Origin: Phycisphaeraceae bacterium
Lineage (GTDB): Bacteria; Planctomycetota; Phycisphaerae; Phycisphaerales; UBA1924
Direction of reading: 5' to 3'
Length of the DNA: 64,000 nt
Assembly: GCA_021299385.1 (NCBI GenBank)
Contig: JAJTGZ010000001.1
Location: 1 to 64,000 of the forward strand
Numbering within the stretch: the stretch's first letter is position 1; every line of letters starts with the position of its first letter. This document shows, piece after piece, positions 22,811-24,665 of this stretch. The notes below the pieces were generated by a model. It saw only the letters and a program-made list of their open reading frames with translations. It had not been told where the DNA came from and did no database searches. A program made the translations under genes and the position numbers.

Positions 22811-22892
22811 CCCCACGCCGAGCGTGGGGGTACCCAAGGCGCCGAGCGTGGGGGTACCCAATGCATCGGGTACCCCCACGCTCCGCGTGGGG
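22811..22892. repeat. palindromic repeat cluster including 30-mer GCATCGGGTACCCCCACGCTCCGCGTGGGG (22863-22892)
   Basis: three iterations of the CCCACGC/GCGTGGGGGTACCC core; contains perfect 16-bp IR GAGCGTGGGGGTACCC / GGGTACCCCCACGCTC. Confidence 0.92.
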
Positions 22893-22902
22893 CCGCTTGG
22901 AT

Positions 22903-24057
22903 TTAGTCCAGCCAATCTTTTTTCGCAAGGCGTTCGGGGAGGTACTCCTCGGTTACATAACTAATGTCGCGTTTGGTGAGGGACTCGACCTCCATCTTAA
23001 AGCCGTTGTCCAAAAGCCCTTGGATCTCGCGCTGCCAACCCTTGTGGTTCTCAAACCACGGGTACGCGGCGATCTGCTTGGCCCGGCTGATGTCGTTGTC
23101 GTTGAGTGCGATCTGCACGTCGTCGGGCAGTTCGCAGCGGGTGTAGTCGATGGCGCGGATGCCCAGGAACTTGGCGTCGGGTATCGCCAGGCGGTTGCTC
23201 TCGAAGGCCAGGCTGATCGACCCCTGCTTGATGACGCTGAAGATGTAGTGCCCCCACGGGTCGTTGTCCAGCAGGCAGTAGATCGGCAGGCCGAGCTCTT
23301 TGTTGAGCCGGCGGAGCAGGCGTCGCATGCCGCGCGTCGGTTGGCCACTGCCCTCGGTGAGGATGCAGTTGTGCTTCTGCCAGAACTTGTCCTCGTTGAA
23401 GCGCCCCCAGACGGTGTCCTTCTCGACGTGCAGGACGAACTTGGCCTCGCACTTCTTGAACTGGATCACGTCCGGCTCGGTGATCCCCGGCACCGAATAC
23501 CCCCCCGAGCCCAGGCGCCGGCAGTCGATCTCGTCGCCGGTGTCGATGATGGTGATGTTCCCGGCCATGGTGCCACGCTTCTTGGCGTAGATGTGCAGTT
23601 CCTCGCGGAGCGCACCGAGGGAGACCTCCAGGTCTTCGAGGATGCCGTCGGACTCCTCCTGGTCGGCGAAGGTTTTTTCCTTGGTCCCCGCGATGGTGTG
23701 CAGCCCGGCATAGAACATCGCGCGCAGGCTGGTGGTCTTCTGCTGGTTGATCAGGTCCTTGGTCCCGGCCGAGTGCAGCAGCATCTGCATGAACTTCTTA
23801 GCCTGGCTGACGTTAAAGAGCGTGCGGTCCTGCTTGGCGTCGCCCATCGTCAGCACGCGGGACTTTTTGTCCCAGATCGTGTTGCTGAGTGTGCGCGTGG
23901 GCACCTCGATCATCGGTTCGCGCTGCTTGAGGCTGGCGGTAACGACGCCGCCGGCAAAGTCGTCGATGTGCTTGATCGTCTGCGCATCGCGCGGGCTGGT
24001 GCGCCCGGCTTTGCTGGATTCTTTGGGCTTGACTTGGGTGGTGGGCTTTCTGGCCAT
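22903..24057 (-). CDS. top6A: DNA topoisomerase VI subunit A / Spo11-like protein
   Basis: TTSLRAMFYAGLH (candidate catalytic Tyr), TOPRIM: KFVLHVEKDTVWGRFNEDKFWQKHNCILTEGSGQPTRGMRRLLRRL and LPIYCLLDNDPWGHYIFSVIKQGS. Confidence 0.85.
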   Translation of the reverse strand: MARKPTTQVKPKESSKAGRTSPRDAQTIKHIDDFAGGVVTASLKQREPMIEVPTRTLSNTIWDKKSRVLTMGDAKQDRTLFNVSQAKKFMQMLLHSAGTKDLINQQKTTSLRAMFYAGLHTIAGTKEKTFADQEESDGILEDLEVSLGALREELHIYAKKRGTMAGNITIIDTGDEIDCRRLGSGGYSVPGITEPDVIQFKKCEAKFVLHVEKDTVWGRFNEDKFWQKHNCILTEGSGQPTRGMRRLLRRLNKELGLPIYCLLDNDPWGHYIFSVIKQGSISLAFESNRLAIPDAKFLGIRAIDYTRCELPDDVQIALNDNDISRAKQIAAYPWFENHKGWQREIQGLLDNGFKMEVESLTKRDISYVTEEYLPERLAKKDWLD

Positions 24058-24199: not shown

Positions 24200-24436
24200 G
24201 TGAGCACCAAGCCCCCCGCCGTCAAACCCGCCGCACCGATCGACGCCTCGATGACCTTCGAGCAGGCCCAGGCCGAGCTTGAAACACTCATCACACGCAT
24301 CGAGGGCGGGCAGGTCGGGCTGGAAGAATCAATGGTCGCCTACGAACGCGGCGTCGCCCTGCTCAAGCACTGCCGAGGGATTTTGGAGAAGGCGGAACAG
24401 ACGTTCACGGATTTGAGTGAGAAGGTCAAGGGGTAG
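24200..24436 (+). CDS. xseB: exodeoxyribonuclease VII small subunit
   Basis: MTFEQAQAELETLITRIEGGQVGLEESMVAYERGVALLKHCRGILEKAEQTF; GTG start. Confidence 0.92.
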   Translation: MSTKPPAVKPAAPIDASMTFEQAQAELETLITRIEGGQVGLEESMVAYERGVALLKHCRGILEKAEQTFTDLSEKVKG

Positions 24437-24445
24437 GGGGGAAAT

Positions 24446-24665
24446 AGGTTTTAGGTGTTCGGTGTTAGGTTTTAGGGGTGGAAACATTTGCGCTCAGTGC
24501 ATCGGGTACCCCCACGCTCCGCGTGGGGATTGATGTGCCTTTGGGGAGCGAAGGAGTGCCCGTGCCCGGCCCCACGCGGAGCGTGGGGGTACCCGATGCG
24601 CGGAGCGTCGGTGATACGACCCTCAAACCCAACATCTAACACCTAACACCTAACACCTAACCCCT
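24446..24665. repeat. symmetrical composite: heptamer array / 30-mer palindrome / spacer / inverted 30-mer / inverted heptamer array
   Basis: 24446-24480 AGGTGTT-type; 24499-24528 30-mer; 24570-24599 exact reverse complement; 24624-24665 AACACCT-type. Confidence 0.9.

Follow-up and report, generated by a model that had tools for sequence, protein, structure and literature searches.

A complete topoisomerase VI with separated subunit genes, probable in a planctomycete of the Phycisphaerales type

We found that a Phycisphaerales-type planctomycete encodes both subunits of DNA topoisomerase VI (Topo VI), with their domains and catalytic residues, together with a single gyrase and no Topo IV, and that top6A and top6B, which are usually adjacent, lie apart. 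The top6A gene probably supplies one half, the A subunit, of a canonical and complete type IIB enzyme that would act as a stand-in for Topo IV. Top6A and Top6B would most likely assemble as an A2B2 topoisomerase, which would mainly serve to unlink replicated daughter chromosomes, a task of the Topo IV that is missing here. The enzyme would most likely relax positive supercoils as well, with labour divided between it and gyrase.

The top6A open reading frame begins with ATG and lies on the minus strand of the window, i.e. the whole 64-kb stretch of DNA that was analysed (Table 1). Its 384-residue product matched the Pfam Top6A domains with scores far beyond chance, the third of them being Topo_VI_alpha (E 1.1e-7), and scored 514.8 bits against the NCBIfam equivalog NF003333 (cut-off 465). 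In a search of PDB sequences, the best solved relative was Saccharolobus shibatae Top6A (2zbk_A, E 7.1e-77). The first-pass annotation had read the gene as a bona fide bacterial Top6A from its TOPRIM signature and from a candidate catalytic tyrosine in SLRAMFYAG, and both features were borne out. The motifs HVEKD (residues 210–214), SGQPTRG (237–243) and LLDNDPWG (262–269) are all present, and Tyr116, the last residue of SLRAMFY (110–116), aligns with the S. shibatae tyrosine. Tyr116, E212, D264 and D266 were all invariant in alignments of 16 class members and of 18 near relatives. Assignment to a non-Top6A family, an outcome that the annotation had allowed for, was not what we found, as only Top6A models matched in Pfam. 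This and the neighbouring genes (xseB and unrelated genes) also led us to reject a JetD/MksG-type TOPRIM nuclease. Judged by its sequence, the open reading frame is a genuine Top6A.

An AlphaFold model of Top6A alone, built from 18 sequences, was of modest quality (mean pLDDT 66). Of its nine significant Foldseek matches, eight were A chains of Topo VI; the ninth and weakest was a Spo11 (8urq_A). The structure prediction suggested by the annotation thus agrees with the family assignment; it adds little beyond the sequence evidence.

We noted that the title of NF003333 reads ‘DNA topoisomerase IV subunit A’. The model sits in the PRK04342 series, one model of which carries the title ‘DNA topoisomerase VI subunit A’, and haloarchaeal records also bear the ‘IV’ name. 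Such titles on Top6A models (PRK04342.1 series) can mislead counts of Topo IV.

Table 1. Positions of top6A, its functional sites, its surroundings and the top6B gene (window coordinates unless a contig is named)
Feature	Position	Strand	Remarks
top6A, DNA topoisomerase VI subunit A	22903..24057	-	384 aa; Pfam, NCBIfam and PDB matches
TP6A_N winged-helix (DNA-cutting) domain	23590..23799	-	residues 87-156; E 8.8e-14 to 9.9e-14
TOPRIM domain	22927..23439	-	residues 207-377; PF21180 TOP6A-Spo11_Toprim, E 1.3e-57
Catalytic Tyr116 codon (SLRAMFY)	23710..23712	-	aligned to Tyr of S. shibatae TIRDLYY; invariant in relatives
Metal ligand codons	E212 23422-23424, D264 23266-23268, D266 23260-23262	-	invariant columns
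Presumed xseB, exonuclease VII small subunit	24200..24439	+	divergent 5′ neighbour of top6A; read from sequence
REP-like palindromic repeats, downstream of top6A	22811-22835, 22868-22892	.	repeat search
REP-like palindromic repeats, beyond xseB	24504-24528, 24570-24594	.	repeat search
top6B, full-length Top6B (GHKL ATPase and transducer)	C72:1297-3507		736 aa

The genome (labelled G000) is a 2.63-Mb draft in 111 contigs, 95% complete and with a contamination estimate of 0.43%. A profile search of its contigs for the Top6B transducer domain gave a single match (E 5.1e-59), on a separate contig of 28.7 kb (C72). As this is the only such match in the genome, Top6B is absent from the window, in keeping with the first-pass annotation. 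The 736-residue product exceeded the cut-offs of both TIGR01052 and NF003218 and matched Methanosarcina mazei Top6B (2q2e_B) with E 2e-132. It contains the N box VKEAVDNSLDA (residues 61–71), DNGPGI (107–112), RGQQGIGIS (137–145) and the switch-lysine loop SESKEAIA (546–553). The M. mazei protein aligns piecewise over residues 5–501, a span that should cover the H2TH region; none of the matching domain models was specific to that region.

In total, the genome has one Top6A, one Top6B, one GyrA and one GyrB. The sole GyrA has a GyrA box and exceeds the gyrA cut-off, and a search of the contigs for GyrA/ParC and GyrB found no second type IIA enzyme. Therefore, this is a genome with gyrase and Topo VI, and without Topo IV. 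Since a complete Top6B is encoded on the other contig, Topo VI is complete and the solo Spo11-like or nuclease role that the annotation had offered is unlikely; its other suggestion, pairing with a distant Top6B, is the one that the genome search upheld. The word ‘orphan’ describes the window correctly, and does not hold for the genome.

Among relatives, top6B is usually the immediate upstream neighbour of top6A and shares its strand. Of the 65 named near-relative loci that offered 2.5 kb or more of flank, 45 had a Top6B match ending no more than 1 kb upstream of top6A, and in members of the family such as G090 (locus L066) the two open reading frames are 31 bases apart. In the present genome, this normally adjacent pair has become separated, and we counted the lack of adjacency against the reading of a complete Topo VI. 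The 5′ neighbour of top6A (24200–24439), which we take to be a member of the xseB family, is divergent; top6A is therefore monocistronic, as first described, and xseB is not part of the system. The top6A contig continues for more than 20 kb on either side without top6B, so the split is not a contig-edge effect. The two genes were also on different contigs in one relative (G119). Our genome pairs with this relative on the GyrA tree and on the Top6B tree, where their Top6B proteins are sisters, and thus the split may be common to both.

A palindromic repeat, GGGTACCCCCACGCTCCGCGTGGGG, occurs on both flanks of the top6A–xseB region. It has 65 genome-wide copies at up to two mismatches, compared with none for a reversed control, and the copies show compensatory stem variants. 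The repeat looks like a REP/BIME-type element; that it was involved in parting top6A from top6B is speculation.

The nearest named relatives are metagenome-assembled genomes of Phycisphaerales and Phycisphaeraceae. In a sample of 150 genomes from the class, Top6A exceeded the family cut-off in 92 and Top6B in 92. The two disagreed in just two genomes: G027, which is 73% complete, had A without B, and G110 had B without A. Their co-occurrence in the class is thus near-perfect. Across the phylum, 189 of the 392 sampled genomes had a Top6A match, and 63 exceeded the cut-off of the NCBIfam model matched by the window's protein. With Top6A in about half of the sampled genomes, Topo VI is commonplace in this phylum. 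The annotation's phrase ‘only sporadic in bacteria’ is correct for bacteria at large (Allen & Maxwell 2024, PMC11302465) and does not apply here.

Two genomes without Topo VI bear on its loss. One, from the same class, retains a short piece of a Top6A TOPRIM domain that contains an in-frame stop (G005:C35:156272-156367, E 4.6e-4), perhaps a recent loss. The other, G046, is of the same family as our genome, 98% complete and congeneric with carriers of Topo VI; it has neither Top6A nor Top6B and one GyrA, and is a recent loss without replacement. A mobile origin of top6A was considered and rejected: a phage search gave no match, and haloarchaeal plasmids gave three matches at 34–37%. An IMG/VR contig labelled viral (IMGVR_UViG_3300037657_000197, L150) contains both Topo VI subunits, with an A subunit 65% identical to that of the window; the contig may be bacterial and wrongly assigned.

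A second, ParC-like type IIA subunit was present in 15 of the 57 class genomes lacking Topo VI and in none of the 93 with Topo VI (Fisher p 1.4e-7, uncorrected for relatedness), and a decatenase role in place of Topo IV fits these counts. Every class genome with Topo VI had just one GyrA/ParC gene; in G019 and G141, which seem to depart from this, the pieces look like those of one gene split across contig ends. The second copies came from three families: f3 (seven, i.e. all its genomes), f10 (seven) and f15 (one). Those examined lacked the GyrA box. Thirteen grouped as a single clade with the f10 copies nested among those of f3, the pattern expected had the ParC-like gene moved between families; outside this clade, the G021 copy was divergent and the G127 copy fragmented. 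ParE was sought by motif only, and a second ParE was found beside ParC in G072. The GyrA tree offered just two supported independent pairs that were informative for the exclusion (sign test p 0.5). The exclusion is therefore strong as a count but weak as independent evidence, because there were few independent switches. In addition, ∼42 of the 57 genomes without Topo VI also had no second type IIA enzyme, the same-family G046 among them, and so Topo VI is not indispensable.

We also noted that one GyrA in the class survey (G080:C31:17514-18833) fell outside those of other class members in the tree, with fragmented GyrA pieces on contig C16; the bin is possibly a mixed one.

Three other explanations were weighed against a complete Topo VI standing in for Topo IV. 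The monocistronic arrangement of top6A, away from top6B, would suit a Top6A that makes Spo11-like breaks or serves as a nuclease, either on its own or with a partner that is not a topoisomerase, and a passage of PMC13040014 describes Top6 homologues as the nuclease part of the MksBEFG, Wadjet and Gabija defence systems. We consider this very unlikely, as the Top6B of the genome is complete with intact GHKL and transducer motifs, the A and B subunits are gained and lost jointly across the class, and the family match is to a Top6A equivalog. The split itself could be an artefact of assembly or binning, with the Top6B contig coming from another organism, as might occur in a draft of 111 contigs with Top6B on a contig of its own. 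The long flanks of top6A, the low contamination estimate, the split in G119 and the pairing of the same two genomes by Top6B and by GyrA make this, too, highly improbable.

A more serious alternative, although still an unlikely one, is that Topo VI is complete and has an auxiliary role, for example the relaxation of positive supercoils in front of forks, while gyrase suffices for segregation by itself. Many relatives, including the one from the same family, have only gyrase, and some other bacteria retain Topo VI alongside Topo IV (PMC11302465). Set against this are the distribution of the second type IIA enzyme, never found with Topo VI in the sampled genomes of the class, and the properties of purified Topo VI, a preferential decatenase and slow relaxer (McKie et al. 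2022, PMC8837201). Replacement of Topo IV as the main job of Topo VI is the reading that we prefer, and a stand-in decatenase has already been proposed (Allen & Maxwell 2024, PMC11302465). The same authors mention unpublished success of M. mazei Topo VI in complementing E. coli with temperature-sensitive parC or parE.

The class holds two kinds of Top6A: type I, which includes that of the window and has S. shibatae as its nearest solved relative; and type II, which is ∼33% identical to that of the window and has Methanocaldococcus jannaschii (1d3y, 394.8 bits) as its nearest solved relative. In Top6A trees, type II grouped with M. jannaschii, M. mazei and one haloarchaeon, apart from type I, and a single bacterial origin of Top6A was rejected (AU p 0.011). 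On this sequence evidence, the Top6A proteins of the class fall into two lineages, each with its own archaeal affinity. The Top6B proteins that accompany either kind clustered together, apart from the three archaeal Top6B sequences in the tree. With these three sequences, an A-like topology for Top6B was not rejected (AU p 0.18), and exchange of the A subunit is therefore possible only. We tentatively suggest, as a less than even prospect, a mosaic in which, on one or more occasions, a Top6A from another archaeal source took the place of the existing one and the bacterial Top6B line stayed, with repeated mutual replacement of Topo VI and the Topo IV-like enzyme in the class.

The families Anaerohalosphaeraceae and Sedimentisphaeraceae belong to the class Phycisphaerae. 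Topo VI has been reported in 17 bacterial families, five of them planctomycete (genera Pirellula, Thermogutta, Lacipirellula, Anaerohalosphaera and Sedimentisphaera), in a survey that sampled one species per family and gave no within-phylum frequency (PMC11302465). Bacterial Top6A formed two clusters in that survey, one near Methanococcales and the other near some DPANN and Euryarchaeota, which are probably the two kinds found here; Topo IV was absent outside Pseudomonadota and Terrabacteria. The present gene belongs to this known bacterial kind. Like the known planctomycete examples, the genome combines a complete Topo VI and gyrase with absence of Topo IV; unlike them, it represents a further order and family. 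Beyond that survey, our analysis adds how frequent Topo VI is in the phylum, the exclusion within the class, the separation of the gene pair and a possible mosaic of A and B.

The archaeal enzymes of S. shibatae (2zbk), M. mazei (2q2e) and M. jannaschii (1d3y) have the same subunits, catalytic tyrosine, TOPRIM ligands and GHKL motifs, and the same domains, the H2TH domain of Top6B presumably among them, whereas here the host is a bacterium with gyrase and the two genes are unlinked. Top6A shares its fold and catalytic residues with Spo11; unlike Spo11, it occurs in a bacterium with a full GHKL-ATPase Top6B and without meiotic partners. Spo11-type cleavage without a GHKL-competent Top6B was rejected, since an intact Top6B is present. 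In Topo VIII, B-like and A-like parts are fused in one chain, and Mini-A is a type IIB relative in bacteria and archaea. Topo VIII is likewise a type IIB relative found in both domains (PMC11302465). In this genome, the two subunits are full-length proteins in their own right and encoded on different contigs, neither a fusion nor a lone A, and on this gene structure we rejected both identities.

An apparently orphan Spo11-like gene in a bacterium is thus corrected to part of an ordinary, complete enzyme, and a false lead is spared. If the mosaic is true, the two halves of planctomycete topoisomerase VI would have different histories. Topo VI and the ParC-like subunit are distributed over different lineages of the class, without overlap in the 150 sampled genomes; this provides a natural experiment on the substitution of Topo IV by Topo VI, and the survey makes the question of the job of Topo VI in bacteria testable.
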